This document shows positions 27,391 to 43,657 of a stretch of DNA of 64,000 bases, in pieces. The stretch is taken from assembly GCF_014851815.1 (NCBI RefSeq), contig NZ_JACVAJ010000002.1:1116001-1180000 (forward strand), written 5' to 3'. The stretch's first letter is position 1. Every line of letters starts with the position of its first letter. Origin of the DNA: Pseudoxanthomonas sp. PXM01 (GTDB lineage Bacteria > Pseudomonadota > Gammaproteobacteria > Xanthomonadales > Xanthomonadaceae). Under the pieces are notes generated by a model. That model was not told where the DNA came from, searched no databases, and saw only the letters and a program-made list of their open reading frames with translations. The translations under genes were made by a program, and so were the position numbers.

Positions 27391-27500
27391 CGTCTCGCCC
27401 GGCCGACACGGGGCCCCAAGGAGTCGCATCACCAGCCCTCGTCCCCGTGTCGCGTCGGATGGCCGCCTTGCGGTGTCGCCACAGAGGACGAAGAGAACGC

Positions 27501-28565
27501 GTGTTGGACAAGCCAAGAAAATCGCTTCGACGCAAGACCAGTGGCGTGACGATCGATGAGGTAGCTGCTCTGGCCGGTGTGTCGCCCATGACGGTTTCGC
27601 GGGTGATCAACAACCAGGGCAAGGTCCGCGATGTCACCCGTGAACGGGTCATGCGCGCGGTACGCGAGCTGGACTACACCCCTAATCTGGCGGCCAGTTC
27701 GCTGGCGGCGGCGCAGCACACGCGCATTGCCCTGATTTACACGAATCCGAGCGGCGCGTACTTGCGTGAGCTGCTGGTGGGACTGCTGCGGGTGGCCTCG
27801 CGTACCGCGGTGCAGTTGGTCATTGACTACTGGGAAGACCTGGATGCCGAGGCCGAGCGAAAAGCCGCACGCGCCCTCGGCAGTCGGGTGGACGGTGTGA
27901 TCCTGCCGCCCCCCCTGTGCGAATCCCGGGCGGCGGTGACCGAACTGATCAAGGCCGGCATCCCGGTGGTCGCCATCGCATCCGGGCGATTCAGTGACGA
28001 TATCTCCTGCGTCCGTATCGACGACTTTCGCGCTGGCAAAGAAATGGCCGAGCACCTTATCCAGCAAGGCCATACCCGGATCGGATTCATCCGCGGCCGT
28101 AAGGATCTCAGCGCCAGCGCCCGACGCTACGACGGCTTCGTCACCGCACTGCATGAAGCCGGCCTTCGCGCGGAGAGCGAACTCGTGCAGCAGGGCGACT
28201 ACACCTACCGCTCCGGACTGGAGGCCGCGGAGAAGCTGCTGGCGCTGCGCAAGCCGCCCACCGCGATCTTTGCGAGCAACGACGACATGGGCGCGGCCGC
28301 GATCTCGGTCGCGCATCGCCGGGGACTCGACGTGCCGCGCGATCTGTCGGTGGTCGGCTTCGACGACACCTCGGCCGCGACCACCGTGTGGCCCGAACTG
28401 ACCACCATCCACCAGCCCATCGCATCGATGGCCGACGCCGCCATCGACATCCTGCTGCGCGGCATCCGCCGCAAGACCGACGGCACGCGCGTGCTGATGG
28501 ACCATGTGGTCCCGCACCGGCTGGTCATCCGCGACTCCGTGGCCACCCCGTCCAAACGGCGCTAG
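27501..28565 (+). CDS. xylR: LacI-family regulator, XylR-like, paralogue 1
   Basis: The 354-residue protein starts at a GTG (27501) with AGAGAA nearby. The N-terminal helix-turn-helix is VTIDEVAALAGVSPMTVSRV (about 16-35) with the hinge LAASSLAAA. A periplasmic-binding-protein-like effector domain follows (RIALIYTNPSG, VDGVILPPPLCESR, FASNDDMGAAAISVAHRRG, VVGFDDTSAAT). It is divergent from aguA and should repress the xylan genes until a xylose-related sugar binds, as Xanthomonas XylR does. A very similar paralogue lies at 41015. Which of the two controls which operator cannot be read. Confidence 0.88.
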   Translation: MLDKPRKSLRRKTSGVTIDEVAALAGVSPMTVSRVINNQGKVRDVTRERVMRAVRELDYTPNLAASSLAAAQHTRIALIYTNPSGAYLRELLVGLLRVASRTAVQLVIDYWEDLDAEAERKAARALGSRVDGVILPPPLCESRAAVTELIKAGIPVVAIASGRFSDDISCVRIDDFRAGKEMAEHLIQQGHTRIGFIRGRKDLSASARRYDGFVTALHEAGLRAESELVQQGDYTYRSGLEAAEKLLALRKPPTAIFASNDDMGAAAISVAHRRGLDVPRDLSVVGFDDTSAATTVWPELTTIHQPIASMADAAIDILLRGIRRKTDGTRVLMDHVVPHRLVIRDSVATPSKRR

Positions 28566-28615: not shown

Positions 28616-30043
28616 TCACCCTTCCATCTGCTCCAGTTCCTTGCCGCGCGTCTCGTGGACGAACCTCAGCACGAAGAAGACCGAAATGATCGCGGCCAGC
28701 GTGTAGAAACCATAGGCGCCGGCCAGACCGATGCTGCCCAGCAGGATCGGGAAGGTCACCGTGATGGCGAAGTTCGATGTCCACTGCGCTGCGCCTGCCA
28801 CGGCCAGCGCCGAGCCCCGGATCTGGTTCGGGAACATCTCGCCCAGCATCACCCACATCACTGGGCCCCACGACATGTTGAAGAAGATGACGTAGAGGTT
28901 CGCGGCCACCAGCGCCAGCGTGCCCATGCCTTCGGGCAGCTGCAGGTGGCCGTCGACCAGCGAACCGCTGGCGAACGCCCACACCACCAGCGCCAGCGAT
29001 ACCGCCATGCCGGCCGAGCCGATCCACAGCAGCGGTTTGCGGCCGATGCGATCGATCAGCAGCACCGTGACGAGGCATGCGCCAATGCTGAGTGCACCCG
29101 AGAGCACGTTGATCAACAGCGCATCGCTCTCGGAGAACCCGACCGCCTGCCACAGCACCGCGCCGTAGTAGAACACCACGTTGATGCCGACCAGCTGCTG
29201 GAACGTCGCCAGGCCGATGCCCACCCAGACGATGCGGCGGATCCTGCCGGTCGCCTTGTCCTTCAGGTCGGACAGTTGTGGGCGATGGTGATCCTGCGAC
29301 AGCGATGCGTCGATCTCCGCGAGCTTGGCCTGGGCCTCGGCGCCGCCGAAAAGACGCTGGAGCACGCGCAGCGCTTCATCCTTGCGCCGCTTGACGACCA
29401 GGTAGCGCGGGCTTTCAGGGATGACCAGCAGCAGCACCAGGAACAGCAACGACGGGACGGCCTGCATCCAGAACATCCAGCGCCAGGCCGCGTATCCGCC
29501 CCATAACGCTTCCGTGGAAGCGCCTGCGGCCTTGGCCAGCAGGTAATTGCTCAGGAAAGCCGCGAACAAGCCACTGATGATGGCGATCTGCTGGACCGTG
29601 GCGAGGCGACCGCGATAGCGCGCCGGCGCGACCTCGGCGATGTAGGCCGGCGAGATCACGCTGGCGGCACCGACCGCGAATCCACCCAGCACGCGCGCAG
29701 CGATGAACAGCAGCGACGTATGGGCGGCGCCCGCACCGAGGGCGGACAACAGGAACAGTACCGCCGAGATGATCAGCACGGTGCGACGTCCCCACTGGTC
29801 GGCCAGGCGCCCGGCGATGAAGGCGCCGAGCGCGCATCCCAGCAGCATGGAAGCGACTTCGAAGCCGATGCCTGCGGAACTGGACTGGAAGGTCTGCTTC
29901 AGACCGTCGATCGTGCCGTTGATCACGCCGCTGTCGAAGCCGAACAGGAAGCCGCCGATGGTGGCCACGCAGCTGATCAGGATGATGAAACGGGTGTTCT
30001 CGCCACGGGCGATGCCGCCGCCTTCAAGCGTGGTGCTGTTCAT
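28616..30043 (-). CDS. xylE: MFS sugar porter, probable D-xylose:H+ symporter
   Basis: The 475-residue, 12-helix protein shows the sugar-porter signatures: GFLFGFDSGVINGTI in helix 1, GRLADQWGRRTVL after helix 2, RVLGGFAVGAASVISPAYIAE with PESPRYL at the central loop, QQLVGINVVFYYG in helix 7, and the repeat DRIGRKPLL. It imports a monosaccharide with a proton; its place behind xylB-xylA makes xylose the likely substrate. GGAGG precedes the ATG at 30043. It is the last gene of xylB-xylA-xylE, 80 bp after xylA, with a hairpin between them. It converges with the XylR gene. Confidence 0.88.
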   Translation of the reverse strand: MNSTTLEGGGIARGENTRFIILISCVATIGGFLFGFDSGVINGTIDGLKQTFQSSSAGIGFEVASMLLGCALGAFIAGRLADQWGRRTVLIISAVLFLLSALGAGAAHTSLLFIAARVLGGFAVGAASVISPAYIAEVAPARYRGRLATVQQIAIISGLFAAFLSNYLLAKAAGASTEALWGGYAAWRWMFWMQAVPSLLFLVLLLVIPESPRYLVVKRRKDEALRVLQRLFGGAEAQAKLAEIDASLSQDHHRPQLSDLKDKATGRIRRIVWVGIGLATFQQLVGINVVFYYGAVLWQAVGFSESDALLINVLSGALSIGACLVTVLLIDRIGRKPLLWIGSAGMAVSLALVVWAFASGSLVDGHLQLPEGMGTLALVAANLYVIFFNMSWGPVMWVMLGEMFPNQIRGSALAVAGAAQWTSNFAITVTFPILLGSIGLAGAYGFYTLAAIISVFFVLRFVHETRGKELEQMEG

Positions 30044-30086
30044 TCGTTGCGCCCCTCCAGGCTCCGAATCGACCTGCTGCCTGCTC

Positions 30087-30123: not shown

Positions 30124-31458
30124 TCAGCGCAGCAGGTACTGGTTGAGCAGGTTCTCGTAACGCTCCTGCTTGCCGCTGACCTGTTTCGGCTCGCCGAGCC
30201 GCGTGGCCAGACCGGCCAGGCCGGCCAGGTCCAGCGCGCCGTTCTCGAAATCCTTGCCCTGGCCGCTGTCGAAGCTGGCGTAGCGCTCGCGGCGCCACTG
30301 TTCCCACGGCGAGTCGGTCAGCAGCGCGTGCGCGACTTCCAGGCCGCGCGCGAACGCGTCCATACCGCCGATGTGGGCGATGAACAGGTCTTCCAGGTCG
30401 GTGGATTCGCGACGCACCTTGGCATCGAAGTTCAGCCCCCCCTCCAGCCCGCCCTGCCGCAGCACCACCAGCATCGCGCCGACGGTGTCGTACAGGTCGG
30501 TGGGGAACTGGTCGGTATCCCAGCCGTTCTGCGCGTTGCCACGGTTGGCATCGATGCTGCCGAGCAGGCCGTGGTCGGAGGCGACCTGCAGGTCGTGCTC
30601 GAACGTGTGGCCGGAGAGCGTGGCGTGATTGGCTTCGATGTTGAGCTTGAAGTCCTTCTCCAGCCCGTGCTCCTTCAGGAAGCCGGCCACGGTGGCGCTG
30701 TCGAAATCGTACTGGTGCTTCATCGGCTCCATCGGCTTGGGCTCGATCAGGAAGTTGCCGGTCAGCCCGATGCTGCGGCCGTAGTCGCGCGCCATCGTCA
30801 GGAAGCGGGCGAAGTGCGCGACCTCGCGCTTCATGTCGGTGTTGACCAGCGAGGCGTAGCCTTCACGGCCGCCCCAGAACACGTAGTGCTCGCCGCCGAG
30901 TTCGACGGTGGCGTCCAGCGCGGCCTTCACCTGCACGGCCGCACGGGCGACGACGGCGAAATCGGGATTGGTCGACGCACCATTCATGTAGCGCGGATGC
31001 GAGAACAGGTTGGCCGTGCCCCACAGCAGCTTGATGCCGGTGGCGTCCTGGCGCGCCTTGGCCAGGCCGACCATGTGCGTGAGGTTCTTCTCGTACTGGC
31101 CGATGTCGTCGGCGTCCGGGGCCAGGTCGATGTCGTGGAAGCACCAGTACGACACGCCGAGCTTGGTGAAGAACTCGAATGCCGCGTCGACCTTAGCCTC
31201 GGCCGTGGCCATCGGCGCGCCGGCCTCCCACGGGAAGTGGCGGGTGCCCGGACCGAACGGATCGTGGCCGGCGTTGCAGAAGGTGTGCCAGTAGCAGACC
31301 GCGAAGCGCAGGTGCTCCTGCATGGTCTTGCCGCCGATCGTCTTCTGCGCGTCGTAGACCTTGAACGCCAACGGATTGTCCGAGCCGCGGCCCTCGAACG
31401 GGATGCGGCCGATGCCGGGGAAGTATTCCTTGGCGCCGATGAAGGGTTGCGTGCTCAT
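30124..31458 (-). CDS. xylA: Xylose isomerase
   Basis: The 444-residue enzyme has the group II xylose isomerase sequence. [12 protein letters not shown] carries the catalytic His (about 108) and Asp. [19 protein letters not shown] has the metal-binding Glu and nearby Lys. [19 protein letters not shown] supplies further metal ligands, and [20 protein letters not shown] is the conserved end of the site. It converts D-xylose to D-xylulose in the cytoplasm using two divalent metals. It follows xylB by 44 bp. The ATG at 31458 starts the conserved [16 protein letters not shown]; the frame upstream runs only inside xylB. Confidence 0.96.
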
Positions 31459-31502
31459 GGTGCGGTGTTCCTGTGGTTGTGCGAGGTGTCGCGTGGGGGA
31501 CG

Positions 31503-32996
31503 TCAGCCGCGTTGCAGCGGGGTGACGGCATCGAGGTACTGGAGGAAGCGGCGATAGGCCGTCGCGTAGGCCGGCGCGCGGGACGCATCGGGCATGGCGG
31601 ACAACGCGGGATCGACCGCGACGTGCGCGCGGGCGACCTCGGCGATGGACGCGTTGCGGCCGCGCGCCTTGTCCCATGCCCACAGCGCCTGCAACGCCGC
31701 ACCGAAAGCCGCACCTTCGGACTGCGCCGGCACATCGACCGGCAGGCCGAACACATCGGCGACCAATTGCCGCCACGCCGCACTGTTGCTGCCGCCACCG
31801 GTCAGCACGATGCGCTCGAAGCGCATGCCGGCGCGGACGAAGGCATCGAAGCCGTACTTCAGGCTGTAGGTCGCGCCTTCCATCGCCGCGCGATACAGAT
31901 GCGCCGGCGAGAAGTTCGTCGCGTCCAGCCCGGCCAGCACGCCCTTGCCCAGCGGCAGGTCCGGCGTGCGCTCGCCGTTGAGGAAGGGCAGCATCACCAG
32001 GCCGTCAGCGCCGGGCGGCGTCGCCTGCAGGTGCGCATCGCCATCGCGCGTGCTGAAGCCGAAGGCCTTGGCCACCTGCTCGGTCGCCACCGTGCAGTTC
32101 ATCGTGCAGATCAGCGGCAGCCAGCCGCCGGTCGACGAACAGAACGCAGCCCACGCGCCGGCCGGATCGACCACCGGCGTATCCGAGTACGCGAACAGCG
32201 TGCCGGAGGTGCCCAGGCTCATCGCCAGACGGCCCTCCTCTACGCAGCCGGTGCCGATGGCCGCCATCATGTTGTCGCCGCCGCCGACGGCGACCTTCGC
32301 CGTGGCCGGCACACCCAGTCGTGCCGCCGCGGCCGGATCGATGTCGAACAGCGCGTCGGGCGCCGCGATCGGCGGCAGGCACGCGGCCAGGTCGCGCTCC
32401 GCATCGGTCGCACGCAACAGCGCGGCCGACCAGGTCCGGGTGCGCACATCGAGCCAGCCGGTGCCGGAGGCATCGCCCCACTCGCAGAAGCGTTGGCCGG
32501 TCAGCACGAAGTTGAGGTAGTCGTGCGGCAGCAGGATCGTCGCCAGCTGCGCGTAGGCCTCCGGGCGATGCGTCTTCGTCCACGGCAGCTTCGAGGCGGT
32601 GTAGCCGGCGAGGATGGGATTGCCGGCCAGCGCGATGGTGCGCGCCGCGCCGCCCACGACGTCCATGATCTGCCCGCACTCGGCGGTCGTGCTGGTGTCG
32701 CACCACAGCTTGGCCGGAGCCAGCACCTCGCCGGCGGCATCGACCGGTACGAAACCGTGCTGCTGCCCGGACACCGCCAGCGCCGCGATGCGCGAGCGCA
32801 CGACCCGGTCGATGCGATCGAAGCACGCCTGCATCGCGGCGACCCAGTCGGCGGCGTGTTGCTCGCGACGGCCGTCGTCACCGCTGATCAGGTCGAGCGG
32901 CGCACTGGCCGTGGCCACGAGAGCGCGCGTGGCCGGGTCGTAGACCACCACTTTCAGGCTCTGCGTGCCTGCGTCTATGCCAGCGGTAAAAGCCAT
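31503..32996 (-). CDS. xylB: Xylulokinase
   Basis: The 497-residue FGGY-family kinase has the phosphate loop [16 protein letters not shown] at the start, [13 protein letters not shown], the catalytic Asp in [10 protein letters not shown] / [12 protein letters not shown], the FGGY-type [13 protein letters not shown], and [18 protein letters not shown] near the C-terminus. It phosphorylates D-xylulose to xylulose-5-phosphate for the pentose phosphate pathway. It heads the xylB-xylA-xylE operon. GGGAGG lies before the ATG at 32996. An XylR-box-like site lies 26 bases further up. Confidence 0.95.
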
Positions 32997-33021
32997 TGAC
33001 CGGTTGCCTCCCACACAAAAA

Positions 33022-33035
33022 GTTAGCGCTACCAT
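33022..33035. promoter_or_regulatory. XylR-box-like operator upstream of xylB
   Basis: Read on the minus strand it is ATGGTAGCGCTAAC, differing from the published Xanthomonas box (TGGTAGCGCTAACA, from memory) only at its last base. It lies 26-39 bases before the xylB start. Confidence 0.8.
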
Positions 33036-33224: not shown

Positions 33225-33923
33225 TCAGTACGTGACGTCGATAAAGGCGTTGATGGACAAACGACCGGTGGCGGGGTCGGCCGAGAGCGCCCGCTCGTTT
33301 TTGATACGCCCCGAATGCAGCGAGTTCCGGCGGTACACGATCAGCCGATTGAACACGCCTTCGACGCTCGCCACGCGCTCGAACATAGACGTATCGCCAT
33401 CGATGTACCCCGCGTGCGTTTCTTCTTCGAGACGACGCTCCTGCGCGAGGCACTCGAAGTACGTGCCATGACGTTGCTCATCGACGTACTCAAATCCGCT
33501 GCGCCGATGGCGGTAGAAATCCGTACCGCCCCATCCGCCGCGGAAAAGGTAATGCACGGTCGCCAGTCCGTTCCTGCTGACCGAATCGATATGCGGAATG
33601 CGCTGCAGGAAATGAAGACGCGCCGCGGGCTGCGTGACCAGCGAGAAGTGGCACATCGGGAACACGAAGCGGCCTGGCTCCATATCGAAGCACTCGCGCA
33701 GCAGGGGAGCGAGCGTCGCCTGCAGGAAAGCTTCATAGGAAGCGGGCGCCGGTGCGCGAATACCGGGGAACATCGTGGCCATTTTGACGTACTGCCGCGT
33801 CGCGGCCTTGCGCACCATGCGCTCCGGATCCGCCAGCAGATTGTCGATGACTAGCAGCGGCGCACCCTCGCGTCCGATCGCCTGCCGCGCGATCCGGATA
33901 TCTGGATGTTTGTGCATCAGCAT
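33225..33923 (-). CDS. DUF6445-like protein of the halogenase block
   Basis: The 232-residue protein has no signal peptide. Its features recall iron/2-oxoglutarate-type double-stranded beta-helix proteins: HYLFRGGWGGTDFYRHRRSG, then NRLIVYRRNSLHSGRI with a late His and Arg, and a final NAFIDV strand. A definite HxD pair is not clear, so enzymatic activity is uncertain. The family is, to my recollection, DUF6445, regularly found beside flavin-dependent halogenases and TonB receptors. It is the last gene of sapC-jmjC-halogenase-DUF6445, 21 bp after the halogenase gene. An ATG at 33917 is an alternative start. Confidence 0.7.
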   Translation of the reverse strand: MLMHKHPDIRIARQAIGREGAPLLVIDNLLADPERMVRKAATRQYVKMATMFPGIRAPAPASYEAFLQATLAPLLRECFDMEPGRFVFPMCHFSLVTQPAARLHFLQRIPHIDSVSRNGLATVHYLFRGGWGGTDFYRHRRSGFEYVDEQRHGTYFECLAQERRLEEETHAGYIDGDTSMFERVASVEGVFNRLIVYRRNSLHSGRIKNERALSADPATGRLSINAFIDVTY

Positions 33924-33944
33924 GGGGCGATCCCGTCCACCGGG

Positions 33945-35474
33945 TCACCGCGGCACAGGACGGTTTCCCCAAACTTCGGGTCCAGCCTTGCAATAGCGAT
34001 CGATGAACGCTTGTTGCGACGGCATTGTCGCGACCGCGCTCTCGATGGGGCGGCGGATGGAAGCCAAGAGCGTACGCAGGTCGTCGTCGGCCAACGCGCG
34101 CGCCAAAGGATGGGGCGGCCCGGGCTGGATACCCTGGCCCAGCAGCACGTGCGTCCAGGAATCGACCCGGAAAAGCTCGTTCGGGTCCTGCCAGGCATGG
34201 GCGCGCTCGCGCCACGCGCGCAAGCGTATCTCCAGCGATTCGGGCAGCGCCATTTCGCGGCACGCCTTCCACATGGGCTCGTCCCGTTGCGTGGCGTGGT
34301 AGTGCAGGATGATGAAGTCGCGCACATGCTCCATCTCGGCGCGGCTGACCTCGTTGTACAGCTCGACCAGCGACGACGCGATGCCGTCGAACGGGAACAG
34401 CTGCACCAGGCGCACCACGGCGCTGATGGCCAGATGGATGCTGGTCGACTCCAGGGGTTCGATGAATCCGCTGGCCAGTCCCAGCGCCACCACGTTCTTG
34501 TTCCAGGCCTTTAGCCGGCGCCCGGTGCGGAAGGGCACCAGCCACGGCTCGCGGATCGCGGGCGCACCGACATCCCGCAACAGCTTGGCGCGCGCTTCGT
34601 CATCGGACATGTGGCGGCTGGAGAACACCAGCCCGCAACCCACGCGGTGCTGCAGCGGGATGTGCCAGCGCCAGCCGGCCTCGTGCGCGATCGCGCGCGT
34701 GTACGGCACCGGCGGCCCGACGGATTCGGTCTGTACCGCCACGGCACGGTCGCTGGGCAGCCACTCGTTCCAGTCCTCATAGCCTGTCCGCAGCGTCTGC
34801 TCGATCAGCAAGCCGCGGAAGCCGGTACAGTCAATGAACAGATCGCCTTCGATGATCTGGCCGTCCTCGAGCACGAGCGAGGCGACCGACCCGTCGTGCG
34901 CATCCTGCGTGACTTCGCGGATCTTGCCTTCCACGCGCCGCAATCCATAGCCCTCGGCGATGCGGCGGAGGAGCCTCGCGTACAGCCCCGCGTCGAAGTG
35001 GTACGCGTAGTTGACCTGCGGTTGCGTCTGCAGGGAGAACTGGTCGCCGCGCGAGGCGACCGTCTCCAGGCAGAAATCGCCGAGTTCCGAAGGCGTGCCG
35101 CGGCGCAGGCTGTCCAGCCAGAAGTGATGGAAGGCCGCTGCCCAGGTGCCCTGCCCGGTGATCCCGAACGGGTGGATGTAACGCTCGCCCGGCCGCCGCC
35201 AGTTCTCGAACGAGATGGAGAGCTTGAACGTGCCCGCCACCGCCCGCAGGAATTCCTGCTCGTCGATCTGGAGGAAACGATGGAACGTGCGGATCGGCGG
35301 TACCGTCGATTCGCCGACACCCACGGTGCCGATCTGTTCCGACTCCACTAGCGTGATCCGCAGCCTGTCACGGAACTGGTGAGACAGCGCGCAGGCCGCT
35401 AGCCAACCGGCGGTGCCGCCGCCGGCGATCACCACGTTGCGGATATGTCCTTCTGGCCCGTCTGGAGAATCCAC
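33945..35474 (-). CDS. Flavin-dependent tryptophan halogenase family protein
   Basis: From the GTG at 35474 (GGGAG eight bases upstream) the protein has 509 residues. The FAD motif GGGTAG is at 18-23. The halogenase signature GWRWHIP is at 267-273. The two catalytic residues of PrnA-type enzymes are present: Lys84 in GTFKLSIS and Glu342 in EPLESTSIH. In the family, FADH2 and O2 make HOCl, which is relayed through a channel to the Lys. The substrate here is unknown; relatives in TonB-receptor loci are mostly uncharacterised. A partner flavin reductase is not seen in the block. A GTG at 35483 is an alternative start. Confidence 0.88.
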   Translation of the reverse strand: MDSPDGPEGHIRNVVIAGGGTAGWLAACALSHQFRDRLRITLVESEQIGTVGVGESTVPPIRTFHRFLQIDEQEFLRAVAGTFKLSISFENWRRPGERYIHPFGITGQGTWAAAFHHFWLDSLRRGTPSELGDFCLETVASRGDQFSLQTQPQVNYAYHFDAGLYARLLRRIAEGYGLRRVEGKIREVTQDAHDGSVASLVLEDGQIIEGDLFIDCTGFRGLLIEQTLRTGYEDWNEWLPSDRAVAVQTESVGPPVPYTRAIAHEAGWRWHIPLQHRVGCGLVFSSRHMSDDEARAKLLRDVGAPAIREPWLVPFRTGRRLKAWNKNVVALGLASGFIEPLESTSIHLAISAVVRLVQLFPFDGIASSLVELYNEVSRAEMEHVRDFIILHYHATQRDEPMWKACREMALPESLEIRLRAWRERAHAWQDPNELFRVDSWTHVLLGQGIQPGPPHPLARALADDDLRTLLASIRRPIESAVATMPSQQAFIDRYCKAGPEVWGNRPVPR

Positions 35475-35491
35475 TGCGGTCACTCCCGTGA

Positions 35492-36511
35492 TCAGCGGTT
35501 GAGGCGGTTGATGAGCATGGCGCGGATGCGCCTGGCTCGTGTCTCGTCGATGGGGCCCAGCAGGTCGCGGCCAGGCTCCGGCAGATGCTCGCCCGCGCGC
35601 GCGGCTGGGCCGAACACGTAATAGTCGAAGATCTCCGCCCATGCGCGCTTTTCGCGTTCGGGCAGATCGCGCAACGTCCACAACGCGTGGTGCAGCGCCG
35701 GCAGCGGCGACGACAGGAATGCGGGGGACCGGCGCCACCAGTAGTTCACCAGCACGTTGAACGGCTCGAGGCTGCGCACGTGGTGCCACCACATGCTGGG
35801 GATGAAGATCGCATCGCCCGGTTCCAGCGTCGCGGTCTGCGCCGTGGCAAGCGCATCGCGGAACCGGGGATGGCGCTCGAAGTCCGGCCGGTCGAAATCG
35901 ACCACGCTGACCACCTGTCCGCCCGGCGTCGGCTCGAGCGGACCGGGATACAGGTTGCCGATCTGATCCGGCGGGAACAGGGTGAAGTGGCGCCGGCCGA
36001 CGGCGCAGCATGCGAGGTTGTTCGGGGCGTCGAAATGGCAGGAGGCGACGACGCGGTTGCCGATCCAGATGCTCGGCGGCGCGTCGATGCCGTAGCGTGC
36101 CAGCGGCAGTCCGTTCACCGCCGTGAACCCCGGCAACGAACGCTCGATCAACAGTGAGGCCACGTAGTACGTCGGCGGATGCGGATCGTCGAGGTGGGCC
36201 GCGATGCCCTCCAGCACCTCGGCGAAGCGCCCCCGCCGCACGTCGAAATTCAACTGTGTGAAGTCTTTGTTGTAAAACGGACGCCCCTGGATGTCCGCGT
36301 CACCGAATGAGTACTGGACCGGGGCGCCCGCATCCAGGCCACGTAGGTATGCCATAGCATTGTCGACGGAGCGCAGGCCTGCCTGGACCAGGCCCCAGTC
36401 GCGCGCGATCCCCTTCAGTACGACGGGTTGGCCGGCGTCTAGCAGCGCGTCCAGCGGCAGCGCATCGACACTGATATCGTGCAGCACACGCATTGCCTGG
36501 CCGTCCACCAT
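35492..36511 (-). CDS. JmjC-like cupin (Fe(II)/2-oxoglutarate-dependent oxygenase family)
   Basis: The 339-residue protein is of the cupin_8/JmjC type. Residues around 15-30 (PLDALLDAGQPVVLKGIARD) form the typical start. Metal ligands are probably His and Asp in SCHFDAPNN near 160 and His in PSMWWHHVRS near 245. FTLFPPDQIGNLYPGPLEP is the conserved strand between them. Such proteins hydroxylate proteins or small molecules. Its position between sapC and the halogenase gene suggests joint action on a shared target, which is inference. It starts 4 bp after the sapC stop. Confidence 0.82.
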   Translation of the reverse strand: MVDGQAMRVLHDISVDALPLDALLDAGQPVVLKGIARDWGLVQAGLRSVDNAMAYLRGLDAGAPVQYSFGDADIQGRPFYNKDFTQLNFDVRRGRFAEVLEGIAAHLDDPHPPTYYVASLLIERSLPGFTAVNGLPLARYGIDAPPSIWIGNRVVASCHFDAPNNLACCAVGRRHFTLFPPDQIGNLYPGPLEPTPGGQVVSVVDFDRPDFERHPRFRDALATAQTATLEPGDAIFIPSMWWHHVRSLEPFNVLVNYWWRRSPAFLSSPLPALHHALWTLRDLPEREKRAWAEIFDYYVFGPAARAGEHLPEPGRDLLGPIDETRARRIRAMLINRLNR

Positions 36512-36515
36512 CGCG

Positions 36516-37271
36516 TCAATGCCCGCCGGATGTCGGAGATTCCTGGGCGCGCAAGCGACGCTGCTTCTCGGCCATCAGGCGACGCACGTTGTGCAGCGAA
36601 GCGAGCATCAGGTAGGCGCCTTCGAGGTAGCCGGCCCGGTGGAGCGCATGCAGCGTCGACGCGTCGAGCGCACCCAGCCGCTCCCGGTCGATGCCGTGCA
36701 GGCCATTGACCGCAACCCGGTGCTGGCCATCCAGTTGAACGTCGAGGCTGACCGGCTGGATTAGACCGGCAGCATCCAGGGCCGCGAACATCTCGCTACC
36801 GAACGCGCTGCCGTCGCGGATGCCCCGCAGCACGTCCACCATGTGATCGAGATACGGCGTATTGCCGCCCTGCGGCAGGAACATCGGCTCCCCGACGACG
36901 AAGTTCACCCGCGGATGCTCCACATCCACATGCATCACCGCTTCCTGCCGAAGCTCGCCGTCGATCCGCTGCTCCTGGAAACCGATCAGGAAGGGACCCT
37001 TCGCGGCGGCGCCGGGGAGATAGCTCGCATTCCAGTGGCCGTCGCGCAGGAAGAGATTTTCACGCTGCTCGAAGCCCAGCAACGCGACCGACTGCCACGT
37101 CCCGTCGGCGGGGTCCTTGCGAAGGAAGATCGGGTACTCCCGCTGCAACTCGGCGAATTCGCTGGGAAACGCCGGCACCATCCCGACATCGTCTCCGAAC
37201 TCGGGCCCGAAGCCGGTGGCGATACGGAGGTCTTTGTGCGACACATTATTGAGAAGTTCGTAACGGGCCAT
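36516..37271 (-). CDS. SapC family protein
   Basis: The 251-residue protein matches the SapC family known next to TonB receptors and halogenases: MARYELLNNVSHKDLRIATG at the start, EYPIFLRKDPADG, LGFEQRENLFL, and a conserved AYLMLASLHNVRRLMAEKQ helix near the end. It has no signal peptide or membrane segment. The name comes from an S-layer-linked protein and says little about role here. It heads the four-gene halogenase block, about 160 bp downstream of the TonB-receptor gene, from which a strong terminator separates it. Confidence 0.87.
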   Translation of the reverse strand: MARYELLNNVSHKDLRIATGFGPEFGDDVGMVPAFPSEFAELQREYPIFLRKDPADGTWQSVALLGFEQRENLFLRDGHWNASYLPGAAAKGPFLIGFQEQRIDGELRQEAVMHVDVEHPRVNFVVGEPMFLPQGGNTPYLDHMVDVLRGIRDGSAFGSEMFAALDAAGLIQPVSLDVQLDGQHRVAVNGLHGIDRERLGALDASTLHALHRAGYLEGAYLMLASLHNVRRLMAEKQRRLRAQESPTSGGH

Positions 37272-37363
37272 CGTCTGCCTGTATCGGGAGTCGTGAGTCG
37301 TCAGGCAATACTAACGCCGGCCGCTGACATCCGCGCCAGTCCGCCGCATGCGTTGGTCTCGTG

Positions 37364-37392
37364 AAAAAGGACCGCTGCTCGCGCAGCGGTCC
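37364..37392 (-). terminator. Rho-independent terminator after the TonB-receptor gene
   Basis: GGACCGCTGC-TCGC-GCAGCGGTCC is a perfect 10-bp stem followed on the minus strand by TTTTT. It lies 39 bp past the receptor stop and before sapC, so the halogenase block is either attenuated or has its own promoter. Confidence 0.85.
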
Positions 37393-37430
37393 CGCTCGGC
37401 GACATCCAGAGAGGGTGGTTATCGCCTAAC

Positions 37431-40400
37431 TCAGAACTTGTAGCGCATGCCGAGCATGAACCTCGGATCCTGGTCGGCCAGCTTCACGATCATCTGGTCG
37501 GTGCGCGCGCGCCAACGGACATCCTCGCCCGTCAGGTTGATCGCTTCGAGGCCGAAGGACCAGTGGTCATCGAGCGTGTAGTTGACGCTGAGGTCCCACT
37601 GCTCGTACTCCTCCACGTAGTAGGGATTGCGGCTCGCGCCCTGGTTGGCGAGGATCAGGTATTCATCGCGCCAGTTCCACGCCAGGCGCACCGACCACCC
37701 GTATTTTTCGTACATGAGCATGGCGTTGGCCGTATCGCTCAGGCCCGTCAGCGCGAACTGGTCGATGGCCGGATCACCGCCATCGTCGTAGCCCACGTCG
37801 CCGCGCACGACGGTGTAGTTGGCCAGGATGCCGAAGCCCGTGTCACCGAAGAAGTACTGCCCACCCAGTTCCCACCCGTGCAGCTTGGACTGGTTCTGGT
37901 TGATCGGCCGGTTGACGTTGAATTGATACAGCGGATCGTCGGCTTCACCATAGAGGTTGTACGCCGCCTCAGTCGCCAGTATCTGCGCGCCGGTGCCGTT
38001 GAACGCCGCCAGGCCGGCCGGATCGTTGCGCAGCAACGCCAGTGCCGTGAACAGCGAGGTGTCGTTCGCCGAACAGGCCGCCGCGTTGGCCGCACCGACC
38101 TGGGCGACGCACGCTGCGCTGGTCAGGAACGCCAATGCCGTCTGGGCATCCGGTCCGGACGTGGGATCCCGCAGACCGTACAGGGACTCCTGGCCCACCG
38201 TGTTGCCGATGAAGTTGTCGACCGACTTGTTCCAGTACGTCAATGACACATAGCTCGCATCGGCGAAGTACCACTCAAGCGCGAGGTCCAGATTGTCCGA
38301 TTCCAGCGGCTTCAGGCTGGGGTTCTGCGCGTTGCCACTCGCACGCACGGACGGGTCGAGCAGGACGGAACCGAAGGGCTGCTGAGCGCCCGGGCCGGCA
38401 TAGAGGTTGCCATACGGGGCGCGGGCGATAGTCTTGCCGAACGACGCACGACCCTTCAGCTCATCGGTGAAATCGATGCTGAAGTCGAGGTTGGGCAGGA
38501 TGTAGCTATAGCTGGCCTTCTCGCTGAAGGGCTGCTGCTCGTCCGACAGCACGATGCGGAAGTCGTTGTTGGCCTGCCACTCGATGGCTTCGGGGATCGC
38601 AATCACGGAGGTAGACACGACATCCGTCGTCTCGTACCTGACGCCCAGCCGGGTGTTGGTACGCATGCCGCCCAACTCGCCATCGAGTTCGATCTGGAAG
38701 TAGGCCGAGTTGGTCTTCTCCTCCACGCGGTTGTCGGCCGCACGCTGCGGGCTGACACCCAGCCCCACGCCATATTGGCCCGCGGCCCACTGGGCGAGTT
38801 CGGCAGCATTGCCACGCCAAGCCGGCCAGCTGACCGCGCTGTAGTCGTCGAACATACCGACGATGTTCACAGGACGCAGCAGATCCACCAGACCGGCCGC
38901 CGTGTCCGAATCGACGTTGGCCACGCCCCAGTCGCCAAGCGTGGAATACGCTTCTGCCGCTTGGATGCGATGGGTAGTGGACTTGTTGGTGTCCACGCCG
39001 AACTGGAAGCGACCCTGGTCGAAACTCCACTCACCGTCGATGCGGGCCTGTTTGATCTCGCTGACCTGTGTCTGCGCATTGATGCGAAGCACTTGGGAGC
39101 CGATCTCGCCTTCCACGAATCCGGGGTTGACCACGCCGTTGGTCCCCGCGATCGCATCGCCATCGGTGGGGTACCAGGTCTGCGTACCGACCGGCAGGCC
39201 ATTATTGAACGCCAGCTCCTGCACCCAGGTGCCGCCGCAGTGCGGTCCGGTCGTGCAGTTGTTGGTGCCGGCGATGCTCATGAAGATCGAGCCACCGCCG
39301 GTCAGCGGATCGTTCGGCCGGCTCTCATTCTTCGAATTGTGGGCGTCGAAGGTGAGGCGGAAGTTGTCGTTCACGTCCCAGGCCGCGTTGAGGCCCAGCG
39401 AACCCAGCTTGTACTTCTGCATGCTGCGCTGCTGTTCCAGGCCGAAATCCTTGGTGCCGGCGATTTCGCGGATGTACACCGGCACAGCGACCGCGCCGCT
39501 GGTATCGAACTCGATATCGGTGTAGTTGCTGTTCTGCAGCCACATCGCCTGCTCACCGCGGTTCTCGGTGATCTCGTTTGTCGAATAGGTGTAGTCCAGC
39601 GTCAGGGTCAGGCTGTCGGTCGGCGCGAATTGCACCACGGCCTGGCCGTTTACGCGCTCGCGTTCGAATTCCGAGAACGCATAGCGGAGATCGTTCGGGC
39701 GCGCATACAGGTCACCGACCGCAGGCGCATTGACCACGTTGGGATTGCCCGGCATGGTTCCGGTCCAGGGCTGCACGTTCCAGTAGTTCTCGGTCGCCTG
39801 CACCGAGCCGCCCTTGCGCTTCTGCTGACTCGCACTCAGGCTGACACCGAACGTCTTGTCCGGATTGGTGTAGCTGAAGATGCCCGACAACTCCGGTGTG
39901 ATGCTGTTGTCGAACGGCTCGCTCTGGTCCGAGACGGCTTTCATGCCCGCGTTCGCGACGACACCTTCATAGTTGAAGGGCCGTGCTGTGAGGATGTTGA
40001 TGGTCGCACCGATGCCTCCGCTTGGCACCTGTGCCTGGGCGGTCTTATAGACTTCGATGCCGTTGATCGCCTCTGCCGCGAGCTGCGCAAAGTTGAACGC
40101 ACGCGTGCCACCATCCACGCCGCCGATCGCGACCTGACCGGACGCGCCGAATGCATCGGCACCAGGCATCTGGCGCCCGTTGAGGGTCACCATGTTGAAC
40201 TGCGGACCGAAACCACGCGCCGTTACCTGCGCACCTTCGCCGTCCCGGCGCTCGATCGAGATGCCGGTGATACGCTGGAGCGACTCGGCGAGGTTCGTAT
40301 CGGGGAACTTGCCGATGTCCTCGGCACTGATGGCGTCGACGACGCCGGCCGAGTCGCGCTTGATGTCCATCGCTTGGCTGAGGCTACCGCGGATGCCGGT

Positions 40401-40577
40401 CACGACCACCGAATCCAGTGTCGTGGCATCGCGCGCCGCCTGCGCCTGCTCTTGTTGGGGAGCCTGGGCTTGCGCCTGGGTTTGCGTTTCCTGGCCAAAC
40501 GCGGGGTTGATGACCAGCACGCCCCCGACGAAGGTGAACATGGCCTTCGATTTGAATTTCGCCAACTTCCGGCTCAT
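37431..40577 (-). CDS. TonB-dependent receptor of the xylan locus
   Basis: The 1,048-residue outer-membrane protein has a signal peptide (about 1-28), a Gln/Ala-rich linker (TQAQAQAPQQEQAQAA), a TonB box-like stretch LDSVVVTGIR, a plug domain (DAISAEDIGKFPDTNLAESL, GFGPQFNMVTLNGRQMPG) and a large barrel ending in LGMRYKF with terminal Phe. The plug motifs are those of the Caulobacter/Xanthomonas carbohydrate TonB receptors, so it should import xylo-oligosaccharides with TonB energy. An XylR-box palindrome lies about 235 bp upstream. It heads the second xylan block. Confidence 0.92.
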   Translation of the reverse strand: MSRKLAKFKSKAMFTFVGGVLVINPAFGQETQTQAQAQAPQQEQAQAARDATTLDSVVVTGIRGSLSQAMDIKRDSAGVVDAISAEDIGKFPDTNLAESLQRITGISIERRDGEGAQVTARGFGPQFNMVTLNGRQMPGADAFGASGQVAIGGVDGGTRAFNFAQLAAEAINGIEVYKTAQAQVPSGGIGATINILTARPFNYEGVVANAGMKAVSDQSEPFDNSITPELSGIFSYTNPDKTFGVSLSASQQKRKGGSVQATENYWNVQPWTGTMPGNPNVVNAPAVGDLYARPNDLRYAFSEFERERVNGQAVVQFAPTDSLTLTLDYTYSTNEITENRGEQAMWLQNSNYTDIEFDTSGAVAVPVYIREIAGTKDFGLEQQRSMQKYKLGSLGLNAAWDVNDNFRLTFDAHNSKNESRPNDPLTGGGSIFMSIAGTNNCTTGPHCGGTWVQELAFNNGLPVGTQTWYPTDGDAIAGTNGVVNPGFVEGEIGSQVLRINAQTQVSEIKQARIDGEWSFDQGRFQFGVDTNKSTTHRIQAAEAYSTLGDWGVANVDSDTAAGLVDLLRPVNIVGMFDDYSAVSWPAWRGNAAELAQWAAGQYGVGLGVSPQRAADNRVEEKTNSAYFQIELDGELGGMRTNTRLGVRYETTDVVSTSVIAIPEAIEWQANNDFRIVLSDEQQPFSEKASYSYILPNLDFSIDFTDELKGRASFGKTIARAPYGNLYAGPGAQQPFGSVLLDPSVRASGNAQNPSLKPLESDNLDLALEWYFADASYVSLTYWNKSVDNFIGNTVGQESLYGLRDPTSGPDAQTALAFLTSAACVAQVGAANAAACSANDTSLFTALALLRNDPAGLAAFNGTGAQILATEAAYNLYGEADDPLYQFNVNRPINQNQSKLHGWELGGQYFFGDTGFGILANYTVVRGDVGYDDGGDPAIDQFALTGLSDTANAMLMYEKYGWSVRLAWNWRDEYLILANQGASRNPYYVEEYEQWDLSVNYTLDDHWSFGLEAINLTGEDVRWRARTDQMIVKLADQDPRFMLGMRYKF

Positions 40578-41014
40578 GAACTTGCCCTCAGGTCTGGAGT
40601 TCTACGGAAACTGCACGCACTCATGGATGTCCCCTCTCGCTACGATCAGTTGGATGTACCGCCCCCCCCGGGGCGCCCACGGGCATGGCCCGCCTTCCAG
40701 CCCCGACACTGCAAGACCTAACTGGGCTCGCCACCTATGCCGGACTTCTCACGTATTCAGACGACGACGCGGCGGGCTAGCGTTCCCAGAAATCCGGTTA
40801 GCTCTGGAATAATGGTAGCGCTACCATCGCGTTGGAGCGCAGACTAATCACGCACATTCCCGGTTGTCACCATGCAGCGCAGCAAAGTCCCAGCAGATCA
40901 ATGCGTGAGGGCGGTCTTACCGACCACCCGGCAGCCCGAGAAAACGGTTTCAGCTCCGGGCGTGCGCAAGTAACCGCAATTTCAGCCCGGCAGGACCCAT
41001 CGAGAGCACCGAGA
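40578..41014. other. Divergent regulatory region between the TonB receptor and LacI paralogue 2
   Basis: No gene seen. A run of eight C followed by GGGG lies near 40663-40674 and the perfect XylR-box palindrome at 40812-40827. The LacI frame is open upstream of its GTG, but the extension has no recognisable domain. Confidence 0.5.
40812..40827. promoter_or_regulatory. XylR-box palindrome between TonB receptor and LacI paralogue 2
   Basis: ATGGTAGCGCTACCAT is a perfect 16-bp palindrome centred on GCGC, the strongest LacI-type operator in the window. It can serve both divergent genes. Confidence 0.85.
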
Positions 41015-42124
41015 GTGAACAAGACATCGAAAGCCGTTCGCCGCAAAGGGCGGGCTGTCACCATCGACGAGGTCGCACAGCACGCCCGCGTGTCCCCCAT
41101 GACGGTCTCGCGAGTCATCAATGGTCACACGGGCGTGCGCGAAGCCAATCGCGAGCGCGTGCGACGTAGTGTGAAGGAGCTCGGCTACCGCCCCAATGCT
41201 GCGGCGAGCGCGCTTGCCGCGGCGCAGAGCACCTCTATCGCGCTCATCTACACGAACCCAAGTTCGAACTACCTGCGTGAGCTCCTCGTCGGCGCATTGC
41301 GGGGTTCCGCACGTGCCGCTGCACAGCTGACGATCGCCGCGTGGGATGGACTAGATCCGCGGGGCCGTCGCGATGCCGCACGCCAGCTGGCAAACAGCGT
41401 TTCTGGCGTGATACTGCCTCCGCCCTTGTGCGAGTCAAAAGTGATCGTTTCCGAGTTCGCGAAAGCCGGAGTGCCCGTAGTCGCGATCGCATCGGGCGAA
41501 TTCAGCAGCACCATCTCCTGCGTGCGTATCGACGACCATCGAGCGAGTCATGACATGGTCGCCCACCTGATCGCGCACGGGCACTCGAGAATTGGGTATA
41601 TCAAGGGCGATCCAAACCAGACCGCCAGCGCGCACCGGTGGCAGGGTTACAGGGACGCGTTGACTGAAGCGGGCATCACTTATGACGACAAGCTGGTCCA
41701 GCCCGGACATTTCACCTATCGATCGGGACTGGAGGCAGCTGAGCGACTCTTAGCGTTGCGGAATCCTCCAACCGCTATTTTCGCGAGCAATGACGACATG
41801 GCATCGGCGGTGGTATCGGTCGCGCACCGGCGAGGCCTCGACGTGCCCCGAGATCTTTCGGTGGTCGGGTTTGACGACACTTCGGCCGCAACAATGGTGT
41901 GGCCAGAGCTGACTACGATCCATCAACCTATCGCCGCAATGGCAGACGCGGCCATTGATATTCTGCTTCGCCAGCTGCGAAACGCGCCTCGATCAACGCG
42001 TGTGGTGGTCAATCACGTGGTTCCGCATCAACTCGTAAAGCGTGATTCTGTCGCCAACGCCGAGATTCTTGCGGGGGCGAGTGGAGTACGTCCATGCTCC
42101 AGGACGACGAGCAGTCATAAGTGA
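41015..42124 (+). CDS. LacI-family regulator, XylR-like, paralogue 2
   Basis: The 369-residue protein starts at a GTG with GAGAGCACC upstream. It is a close paralogue of the regulator at 27501: VTIDEVAQHARVSPMTVSRV in the helix-turn-helix, and shared long stretches in the effector domain such as SGVILPPPLCES, SVAHRRGLDVPRDLSVVGFD and TTIHQPIA. The recognition helix is identical in key positions (SPMTVSRVIN), so both should bind the same box. It is divergent from the TonB-receptor gene, with a perfect operator between them. The C-terminal ~20 residues are a unique tail. Confidence 0.87.
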   Translation: MNKTSKAVRRKGRAVTIDEVAQHARVSPMTVSRVINGHTGVREANRERVRRSVKELGYRPNAAASALAAAQSTSIALIYTNPSSNYLRELLVGALRGSARAAAQLTIAAWDGLDPRGRRDAARQLANSVSGVILPPPLCESKVIVSEFAKAGVPVVAIASGEFSSTISCVRIDDHRASHDMVAHLIAHGHSRIGYIKGDPNQTASAHRWQGYRDALTEAGITYDDKLVQPGHFTYRSGLEAAERLLALRNPPTAIFASNDDMASAVVSVAHRRGLDVPRDLSVVGFDDTSAATMVWPELTTIHQPIAAMADAAIDILLRQLRNAPRSTRVVVNHVVPHQLVKRDSVANAEILAGASGVRPCSRTTSSHK

Positions 42125-42246: not shown

Positions 42247-42717
42247 CTAAGCGCCCGGCAGTCGCCTAACCCCATAAGTCGCTTCCGCCGCCTCGATCTG
42301 CGATGACTCCGATGTGCTCTCTCCGAAAAGCAGGTAGCTTGGCGCTACAATCTCGACCGTCCTTTCCACTTGGATCACAAAGACACTCCGGACCGGGAAC
42401 CGATCTCCTACGATCGGAAGCAGAGGCGTCACCCATTTTCGATAGTCTTCCGTATGCCGCCTGACGTTGATGGCTGAGCCCATCATCTTGTGGCCCTTCT
42501 GTACGAGGATGTCCACCAGGCTCACGCATACGCGCGGATTCTCTTCGATGTTCTTCGCACTGACAGGAGACGCGATGTTCGCGATGACCACATGTCGATC
42601 ATCGAAGGCTCGGAAAACCTCCTTGGGGGACACGTTGGGCTGACCATTCGCGTCCGCCGTGGCCAGCCAGCAGAGTACGCTGGCTTCCATCGACGTTCGG
42701 ACCTTATCGGTCAACAT
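42247..42717 (-). CDS. Pyridoxamine 5'-phosphate oxidase-like flavoprotein
   Basis: The 156-residue protein has the split-barrel FMN-binding fold. CWLATADANGQPNVSPKEVF near residues 15-34 is the typical start, VIANIASPVSAKNIEENPRV the FMN-phosphate region, and FVIQVERTVEIVAPSYLLF the final strand. Members oxidise or reduce varied small molecules, often with F420 or FMN; PdxH-specific residues are not evident. GGGAGAGG precedes the ATG at 42717. It lies downstream of a LysR gene and overlaps its end by 14 bases, so the two are cotranscribed. Confidence 0.82.
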   Translation of the reverse strand: MLTDKVRTSMEASVLCWLATADANGQPNVSPKEVFRAFDDRHVVIANIASPVSAKNIEENPRVCVSLVDILVQKGHKMMGSAINVRRHTEDYRKWVTPLLPIVGDRFPVRSVFVIQVERTVEIVAPSYLLFGESTSESSQIEAAEATYGVRRLPGA

Positions 42718-43657
42718 GGACCTCTCCCTCGGGTTCACTTGGCGTCGGTGCCGACAGTCTGATCGCCTCGCTCTTAATCCAATCCGCAACCTGTTGCACC
42801 TGCTGTCGTGGCCGAGGCTCGGCCTCTATGAGCCAGAACCCGTGGTGGCTAGTAGGCGTCACCTTGGCAGACTCGATGACTACAAGCCGACCTTCTTCAA
42901 TCATGGGTCGGATCAGTTCGTAGCGCCCCAGCGCGACGCCCTGTCCCGCCAATGCCGCCTGGATCACCAGGTCGTATTGGTTGAAGTGCAGAAGCGTCCG
43001 TGGCTTGACCTTTTCGCCCACGTGGGCATCCAGCCAAGGGCGCCATTGCAGCCATGGGTAGCGCTCGTCATCGAACTCCAGAAGAGTCAACGCGGATACA
43101 GCTCCCGCCGAGCGCAAGCTCGCGGCACCAAACGACGGGCTGGCCACGGGCACGACGGTTTCTGCAAAAAGCAGCTTCGCACCTGATGGGGCACGATCGG
43201 TAGACGTATAGCGGATGGCCAAGTCGATGCCATCGTTGCGCAGGTCGACCAGTCGATTGTGCGCCGCCACGCGGACATCGATGTCGGGATACAGGGCTTG
43301 CAGTTTTCCCAAGCGCGGAAGCAACCACAGTCCGGTAAAGCCGATCGTCGCGCTGATGGTCACGGGCCTGTTCCTAGTGCGGGCCTGCAGCTCACCCAAC
43401 ACGTCCTGTAATTGCTGGAGCGCCCCGTCCGCGCTTCGATATAGCCGCTCACCTTCGGGGGTAAATTCGATGGTGCGATGACCGCGGACCAGAAGCTTCA
43501 CCCCCAACTGTTCTTCCAGCGCGTGGATCTGGCGACTGACGGCCGACTGGGTCAGGTGCAGATCCTTCGCCGCGAGCGTGATGCTCATGCGCCGCCCCAC
43601 CGCGACGAAGCCGCGAACTAGGTCCAACGAGGGCATTCTTGCGAAATCCATTGGCAT
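42704..43657 (-). CDS. LysR-family transcriptional regulator
   Basis: The 317-residue protein has the LysR helix-turn-helix (MPSLDLVRGFVAVGRRMSIT, LTQSAVSRQIHALEEQLGVK) and a substrate-binding domain of the GcvA/AmpR type (TISATIGFTGLWLLPRLG, VDLRNDGIDLAIRYTSTD, LVIQAALAGQGVALGRYELI). It lies divergent from the MFS operon with about 98 bp between starts, the usual arrangement for a LysR activator of the neighbouring unit. The inducer is unknown. Starts at 43657 and 43651 are both possible; neither has a strong ribosome site. Confidence 0.88.
   Translation of the reverse strand: MPMDFARMPSLDLVRGFVAVGRRMSITLAAKDLHLTQSAVSRQIHALEEQLGVKLLVRGHRTIEFTPEGERLYRSADGALQQLQDVLGELQARTRNRPVTISATIGFTGLWLLPRLGKLQALYPDIDVRVAAHNRLVDLRNDGIDLAIRYTSTDRAPSGAKLLFAETVVPVASPSFGAASLRSAGAVSALTLLEFDDERYPWLQWRPWLDAHVGEKVKPRTLLHFNQYDLVIQAALAGQGVALGRYELIRPMIEEGRLVVIESAKVTPTSHHGFWLIEAEPRPRQQVQQVADWIKSEAIRLSAPTPSEPEGEVHVDR

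Follow-up and report, generated by a model that had tools for sequence, protein, structure and literature searches.

On the minus strand of a 64,000-nucleotide stretch of the Pseudoxanthomonas sp. PXM01 genome (contig NZ_JACVAJ010000002.1, positions 1,116,001 to 1,180,000; this whole stretch is called the window below), a run of five genes at 33225-40577 encodes, according to the list of open reading frames (ORFs), a TonB-dependent receptor (TBDR), a SapC protein, a FIH-like Cupin_8 protein, a flavin-dependent halogenase and a DUF6445 protein. Comparison with related loci indicates that this block is a real, conserved and probably functional module, bound to one class of sugar-uptake TBDR. It is ordinary as an enzyme family and unusual as a system: the version in the window combines one receptor group, two predicted 2-oxoglutarate (2OG) oxygenases and a dedicated SapC clade. 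Tentatively, we propose that the module serves the oxidative modification of a protein or peptide, a target that we infer, with the cognate receptor before its export as first candidate. The genes of the block are:

37431..40577, minus strand: TonB-dependent receptor, 1048 amino acids, TIGR01782 (TonB-Xanth-Caul), with Pfam TonB plug and barrel
36516..37271, minus strand: SapC family protein (PF07277), placed in the halogenase-linked SapC clade by its tree; confidently predicted fold
35492..36511, minus strand: Cupin_8/JmjC-like 2OG-Fe(II) oxygenase, FIH-like (PF13621; triad His159, Asp161, His243)
33945..35474, minus strand: flavin-dependent halogenase of BrvH/Xcc4156 type, 509 amino acids from the GTG at 35474 (PF04820; Lys84, Glu342, 13-residue loop)
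33225..33923, minus strand: DUF6445 protein (PF20043), predicted 2OG-Fe(II) oxygenase of OGFOD1/P4H fold (His111, Asp113, His203, Arg221)

Pfam E-values are 5.8e-81 for DUF6445 (PF20043), 9.1e-189 for Trp_halogenase (PF04820), 8.3e-69 for Cupin_8 (PF13621) and 7.1e-65 for SapC (PF07277), and the receptor scores 774 bits against TIGR01782 (cut-off 310). The earlier note on this DNA had described five genes in one direction, a xylan setting, and a halogenase with the PrnA-type pair Lys84/Glu342, the FAD motif and GWRWHIP. All of this was recovered: the five ORFs lie there on the minus strand with families matched by Pfam; GH67, a SASA-type esterase, GH3, GH43, MFS_2, xylose isomerase, xylulokinase and a sugar porter were identified; and the halogenase residues and motifs are present with the numbering first given.

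Conservation of the module

Close halogenase loci were compared as the best 80 of 109, with 67-94% halogenase identity; they are related, not independent. TBDR, SapC and cupin are kept in all 80. DUF6445 occurs in just 23 of them, and in each of the 57 others at least 900 bases follow the halogenase; six changes on a halogenase tree of 83 loci explain its presence and absence. The phylum sample comprised 150 genomes, with a halogenase in 15 (E <= 1e-60), SapC in 49 (<= 0.001), DUF6445 in six (<= 1e-8) and Cupin_8 in ten (<= 1e-30). The halogenase genomes include 6/6 of those with DUF6445, 8/10 with the cupin and 14/49 with SapC (Fisher values of 4e-7, 5e-8 and 4e-7, respectively, not corrected for relatedness). 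A halogenase lies within 6 kb of seven of nine DUF6445 genes above 160 bits (exceptions L033 and L204) and of 13 of 17 cupins above 190 bits (exceptions L205, L206, L207 and L208); two weak DUF6445 and three weak cupin matches were excluded from these positional counts. The L206 cupin adjoins a TBDR, and that of L207 sits between GH3 and GH5.

The 15 halogenase genomes hold 56 halogenase genes in 36 loci, namely 53 search matches and three weaker degenerate copies found by our own profile. A TBDR lies within 6 kb of 49 of these genes (46 of the search matches) and in 30 of the loci. As a control, SapC-only stretches of 12-20 kb were taken from 13 of these genomes, and one of the 13 showed a TBDR. 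Thirteen receptors were found that share 40% identity or more with the window receptor over 700 or more residues; each of them stands beside a halogenase and a SapC gene, 12 beside a cupin and three beside DUF6445, and the one lacking the cupin is that of L196. Ten of these receptors came from the phylum sample and three from a class sample of 370 genomes, with the best five and the best two candidates per genome scored, respectively, so that others may have been missed. At 40-45% receptor identity the linkage is still present, in the class of the window as well as in another class of the phylum, which we guess to be Alphaproteobacteria. Three weaker receptors (35% over 751 residues; 44% and 42% over about 400) had no module gene beside them in L214 (short flanks), L252 and L253.

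Strict co-occurrence of the four-gene set, which the earlier note had put up for comparison, does not hold, given the DUF6445 count above, the missing cupin in L196 and the many halogenases of the wider sample that have a TBDR but neither SapC nor cupin. Halogenase and neighbors are nevertheless not found apart as often as together, and the 80/80 loci and 13/13 receptors make a dedicated pathway likely. The tailoring pathway suggested earlier is partly supported: a second oxygenase is now predicted from structure, and the fixed set of four genes has to be given up.

Receptor distances and nearest-halogenase distances correlate over 33 pairs (Mantel r 0.41, reached by 0 of 5000 shuffles), and shuffles confined within genomes (mean 0.095, highest 0.31) did not reach this value either. 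In the receptor tree, three groups hold most of the halogenase-linked receptors, and some unlinked receptors lie within or next to these groups. A sugar-uptake operon and unrelated enzymes that are merely inherited together under common regulation would agree with the lack of a distance correlation within genomes (see below) and with a TBDR that may be terminated separately. Such joint inheritance accounts poorly for a linkage of 13/13 that spans two classes with receptors of 40-45% identity, for the dedicated SapC clade and for neighbor genes that differ between loci, and we consider it improbable.

A different arrangement occurs at L193:8715-15110, where genes for an ECF sigma factor, FecR and a sugar porter come after halogenase-SapC-DUF6445 and no TBDR was found in the stretch. 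This suggests a receptor-signaling version.

Halogenase

The GTG start of the halogenase at 35474 is preceded by GGGAG nine bases upstream. The product of 509 residues (628 bits in Pfam) carries the FAD motif GGGTAGW at 18, Lys84, GWRWHIP at 267 and Glu342. Lys and Glu are both kept in 142 of 147 distinct homologues (157 of 163 frames of at least 380 residues before removal of duplicates). Its nearest named relatives, 93-94% identical, are from Pseudoxanthomonas sp., and the closest relatives in the PDB are Xcc4156 (6y1w, 556 bits), 9luq (501 bits) and BrvH (6frl, 446 bits). Residues 422-434 align ungapped to the 13 residues 432-444 of BrvH in a sequence alignment. By these features the enzyme is of the open-site BrvH/Xcc4156 type, in which a short loop replaces the lid covering Trp.

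For BrvH it is described that the short loop leaves the active site open, that indole is turned into 3-bromoindole, that free Trp is not a substrate and that a peptide-bound substrate may be the natural one; a second halogenase gene adjoins brvH (PMC5945002). Xcc4156 acts on indole and its derivatives, brominated its test substrates exclusively and did not accept free Trp; the 2020 structure paper calls its native substrate unknown and suggests peptides (PMC7336383).

The genome of the window holds a second block (L001:11282-19334) with the order TBDR-halogenase-SapC-cupin-halogenase. Of its two halogenases, the last scores 698 bits to Xcc4156 and the first is nearest to 2pyx. Intact halogenases in genomes of another class adjoin paralogues that lack Lys and Glu (R/G or S/T instead; L175:7994-9478, L178:9044-10528, L181:5481-7211 and L197:11038-12531), perhaps as non-halogenating partners. 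The record of Xanthomonas phaseoli (L173) shows both TBDR and halogenase divided between two frames, so that the block looks broken there.

Relatives of LodB and QhpG hydroxylate protein Trp. Membership of the window enzyme in these flavoprotein families was set aside, since it reaches only 25 bits for LodB (cut-off 400) and 28 bits for QhpG (cut-off 240) in NCBIfam. The same weak matches could nonetheless hint at a monooxygenase that hydroxylates protein Trp in vivo and halogenates only as a side activity in vitro, and the exclusive bromination by Xanthomonas enzymes, from habitats low in bromide, would fit. Both scores lie far below their cut-offs, however, and the conservation of the Lys/Glu pair speaks against this reading; a monooxygenase is quite improbable.

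Predicted oxygenases

The cupin finds FIH (E 1e-20) and JMJD5 (E 4e-17) as best PDB matches, spanning residues ~147-281 only. Its metal triad His159, Asp161, His243 is present in 95 of 95 distinct homologues (99 of 99 rows). FIH binds 2OG through a Lys; at this position the cupin has Arg174 in a sequence alignment, and Arg is found in 98 of 99 rows.

DUF6445 has no sequence match in the PDB. An AlphaFold2 model from an alignment of 34 sequences (pLDDT 94.7) was therefore compared structurally, and VIA-align placed 553 of 999 chains at Z >= 8. OGFOD1 is the top match (Z 14.8, root-mean-square deviation (rmsd) 2.9 over 177 residues), with the mimivirus lysyl hydroxylase, LH3, a Trichoplax prolyl hydroxylase, PasI, Tpa1 and PHD2 among the other top rows; matches among the top 50 rows range from Z 14.8 to 12.0 with rmsd 2.7-3.5 over 151-180 residues at 10-19% identity. 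The full set of His111-x-Asp113, His203 and Arg221 is found in 46 of 49 distinct homologues (58 of 63 rows); the exceptions are L021 = L107 (Pro at 203), L029 = L101 (contig end) and L033 (triad lost). Hence, DUF6445 is predicted to be a 2OG/Fe(II) oxygenase with the double-stranded beta-helix of the OGFOD1/prolyl-lysyl-hydroxylase fold, and the family thereby gains a predicted enzyme class.

The Pro at the distal metal His in L107 (Pseudoxanthomonas sacheonensis; L021 is the same gene) probably leaves this DUF6445 inactive, and the other four block genes are present there. L033:8432-9283 is a second DUF6445 copy in the genome of the window, with the triad replaced (RQR) and no halogenase near. 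For the family members in general, catalysis is under selection, as the catalytic residues are kept across the homologues of halogenase, cupin and DUF6445, and from these residues halogenase and cupin of the window look active.

SapC

The SapC model is of high confidence (pLDDT 96.5). Foldseek returned nothing at E < 0.001, and in VIA one of 998 chains reached Z >= 2, scoring 2.2. SapC is thus a confidently predicted fold without a usable PDB match, which is not proof of a new fold. In a tree of 77 sequences, midpoint-rooted and without support values, the linkage to the module changes twice: 21 block SapCs form one clade and 55 stand-alone ones lie elsewhere. Every tenth of the 80 close loci entered this tree, and frames shorter than 200 residues and identical ones were dropped. 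The outlier, L051, lies beside a divergent halogenase.

As a general marker of the module SapC was rejected, because a halogenase is near only 14 of the 69 SapC genes whose surroundings were seen. These derive from 88 matches, of which 60 were fetched as anchors, mostly excluding those already known from blocks, and 19 were not viewed. Five of the 60 anchor stretches contain a halogenase, one of them (L051) divergent and without Lys and Glu; nine further matches, from the window, the second block of the same genome and other fetched stretches, are all halogenase-linked. The L051 gene (L051:13924-16740) is a long halogenase-like frame with Arg and His for Lys and Glu, near an unrelated SapC. 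With 49 of the 150 genomes of the phylum sample, SapC is a widespread family, and its genes lie mostly away from the module where surroundings were seen. In Pseudoxanthomonas sp. J31 (L172:13071-16988) a second similar TBDR and a second SapC directly follow a full block; this tandem copy has no second halogenase in the stretch and is outside the SapC tree.

Putative substrate and mechanism

In the mechanism that we propose, the open-site halogenase would attack an aromatic side chain, most probably that of Trp, by halogenation or another oxidation. Further side chains would be hydroxylated by the FIH-like cupin and, in loci that have it, by the DUF6445 protein with its P4H/OGFOD1-like fold. 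SapC would act as a dedicated partner for binding or presenting the substrate. This substrate is most likely a protein or peptide, since FIH and JMJD5 as relatives of the cupin, and OGFOD1, lysyl hydroxylases, Tpa1 and PHD2 as matches of DUF6445 in VIA, act on proteins. The co-encoded receptor, prior to export, is the first candidate because, of the partners that are not enzymes, it alone has a known role and occurs in all close loci. The block enzymes presumably are cytosolic and act before export, as no signal sequence was recognizable in them by eye. A more specific form, in which a SapC-guided halogenase together with FIH-like and prolyl/lysyl-hydroxylase-like oxygenases modifies the nascent receptor, and thereby tunes ligand binding or blocks phages or bacteriocins that use it, is unlikely; if true, it would mean enzymatic halogenation of an outer-membrane protein.

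Six Trp residues are invariant across ten diverse receptors of the window's group. Trp266, Trp346, Trp550 and Trp667 of the window receptor are invariant amid variable regions and are candidate modification sites. Trp667 is found in 12 of 12 linked receptors and is absent from the nearest unlinked ones, as is the Trp at 443 of the L190 receptor (10 of 10 linked); with only two unlinked receptors in each comparison these are leads. The receptor group between the two showed no linked-only Trp.

Several observations weigh against modification of a protein, and of the receptor in particular. We know of no halogenated or hydroxylated product of the module. Stacking on sugar could equally explain the invariant Trp residues; no Trp is invariant over all halogenase-linked receptor groups, and no receptor residue follows DUF6445 in an all-or-none manner (25 receptors with, 56 without; largest frequency difference 0.74). 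Same-genome pairs (n=38) give r 0.03, which lends no support to a fine matching of receptor and halogenase within genomes. Seven of the 56 halogenases lack a TBDR within 6 kb (L051, L177, L184, L189, L193, L203 and the second gene of L185, at 7.1 kb), and the recognized glycan enzymes of the window's receptor group are xylan types. Finally, the best Foldseek matches of DUF6445 are the small-molecule oxygenases HygX (E 4e-5) and AndA, followed by OGFOD1, and PasI and PolD are also in the VIA list. Both lists together place DUF6445 near protein and small-molecule oxygenases alike.

The latter resemblance would suit a module that yields a small diffusible product, such as a halogenated indole or a modified short peptide encoded elsewhere, which is imported by the linked receptor or signals that sugar is available. 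The activities of BrvH and Xcc4156 on indole point the same way, as do the halogenase/SapC/DUF6445 set adjoining the ECF sigma/FecR pair and the loci L184 and L193, which have halogenase and DUF6445 without a TBDR in 6 kb. No synthase or exporter was recognized among the block genes, however, and the link to a sugar receptor would be hard to explain. A gene for a precursor peptide of the ribosomally synthesized and post-translationally modified type was not recognized at the block, where no survey of small ORFs was made. In L119, L130 and L172 the gap between TBDR and SapC is only ~36-55 bases (assuming a SapC of the window's length), so that no precursor gene can be obligatory there. We regard a small product as doubtful.

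Locus setting and regulation

The five-gene block is flanked by a divergent LacI gene and by xylB, xylA and a sugar porter, beyond which lie the xylan genes GH67, SASA-type esterase (acetylesterase), GH3, GH43 and MFS_2. With its TBDR, sugar transporter, regulator and degrading enzymes, the locus has the composition of a carbohydrate utilization (CUT) locus. The further features are:

40832..42124, plus strand: divergent LacI-family regulator, start codon uncertain (ORF list, Pfam)
40813..40826, no strand assigned: palindrome TGGTAGCGCTACCA, likely LacI-type operator of the TBDR block (motif count)
37371..37387, minus strand: GC-rich hairpin followed by a T run in the TBDR/SapC gap, possible partial terminator (sequence scan)
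33021..33034, no strand assigned: copy of the palindrome with two mismatches, before xylB (motif count)
31503..32993, minus strand: xylB, xylulokinase, start 32993 assumed (ORF to 33035; TIGR01312 503.6 bits, cut-off 380)
30124..31464, minus strand: xylA, xylose isomerase, start assumed (ORF to 31776; TIGR02630 671 bits, cut-off 533)
28616..30064, minus strand: sugar porter, start assumed; best model XylE (D-xylose transporter) with 382 bits, below the cut-off of 608
25207..27516, minus strand: GH67 alpha-glucuronidase, xylan-locus marker (family scan)

The exact palindrome TGGTAGCGCTACCA separates the LacI gene from the TBDR; with the copy before xylB, two were found where 0.13 were expected. 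Since copies are present at both sites, receptor block and xylB probably share one regulator. Beyond the LacI gene, at 42247-42789 of the window, lies a gene for a small PNPOx-type flavoprotein, a candidate flavin reductase.

SapC and cupin are separated by 4, cupin and halogenase by 17, and halogenase and DUF6445 by 21 bases. Between TBDR and SapC the gap is 159 bases and holds the hairpin and T's; hence, the five co-directional genes need not be one transcript. A generic scan found terminator-like sites at chance level (4 found; shuffles mean 5.1). The hairpin was detected in 28 of 89 related loci by a crude detector without shuffled control, a survey that includes L001, where a halogenase separates TBDR and SapC. 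Partial termination after the TBDR is possible in these 28 loci and is not a general trait.

Near linked receptors 121 frames were chosen, and 115 of them from 24 loci were scanned after six had been dropped by hand; 30 were also scanned singly. GH13 (9), GH3 (8) and GH97 (3) are among the 25 commonest of 73 and 81 families, and one of the two neighbor lists adds GH10 (3), GH43, GH67, GH42 and melibiase. Among those scanned singly, GH13 alpha-amylase genes map to L176, L179, L185 and L200, which belong to a different receptor group from that of the window and whose halogenases stand alone or with DUF6445. The halogenase family is therefore not tied to xylan. In the window's receptor group we found GH67 (L089), GH43 with GH3 (L182) and two GH3 with an IlvD/Edd-type dehydratase (L084); three mapped neighbors in L196 and L201, also of this group, are DNA polymerase III, UvrD and a DPP-IV peptidase.

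These neighbors bear on the idea that the enzymes act on cargo, namely on aromatic groups such as ferulate on imported xylan fragments. The position of the block within a xylan locus and the xylan-type enzymes of its receptor group are consistent with this. The housekeeping and peptidase genes in L196 and L201 are not, nor is GH13 beside halogenase-linked receptors, an argument that is weakened because the GH13 loci belong to the other receptor group and lack the SapC/cupin version. The GH13 mapping led us to raise the aromatic cargo somewhat, to a level that is still only an outside chance, and to lower slightly our estimates for the oxidative modification of a protein or peptide, for its more specific receptor form and, marginally, for the monooxygenase.

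Comparison with known systems

BrvH and Xcc4156 (6frl, 6y1w) share the Lys, the FAD and the WxWxIP motifs with the window halogenase, and the 13-residue BrvH loop aligns without gaps. They are described as single enzymes, and the word TonB is absent from the accessible text of the papers (PMC5945002, PMC7336383). For Xcc4156, the last halogenase of the second block is the closer relative (698 bits, against 556 bits for the window enzyme). Tying halogenases of this type to TonB receptors narrows the question of their native substrate to a short list of targets. With MibH-type peptide halogenases the likeness is the idea of a peptide-bound Trp substrate, which was proposed for BrvH and Xcc4156. 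MibH (5uao), described as chlorinating the Trp of its cognate peptide deschloro NAI-107, is more distant in sequence, with 202 bits to the window halogenase.

The cupin has the His-x-Asp...His pattern in common with FIH and JMJD5 and differs by an Arg where FIH has its 2OG-binding Lys. With OGFOD1/Tpa1, LH3, PHD2 and P4H, DUF6445 has the predicted fold, the metal triad and the Arg in common, at an identity of 10-19%.

No description of the TonB receptor-halogenase-SapC set was recognized in searches of an open-access library; a published figure of the Xanthomonas xylan locus may nevertheless show these genes. The accessible parts of PMC8269204, PMC11340318, PMC10919026 and PMC11337851 contain no such gene linkage; a halogenase role in the redox control of virus-host receptors is raised as speculation in PMC11337851. 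The Xanthomonas CUT loci and the xytA xylan locus share TBDR, LacI regulator, sugar porter and xylan enzymes with the window. Xanthomonas loci with close halogenases were recovered in the homologue search and presumably are the xytA locus. As words, halogenase and SapC are absent from the main texts of the CUT-locus papers as far as accessible (PMC1790865, PMC3826837). Already known are the enzyme family, the CUT loci and the xylan loci of Xanthomonas (PMC1790865, PMC3826837); the present analysis adds the systematic linkage to receptors, the dedicated SapC clade and the predicted fold of DUF6445.

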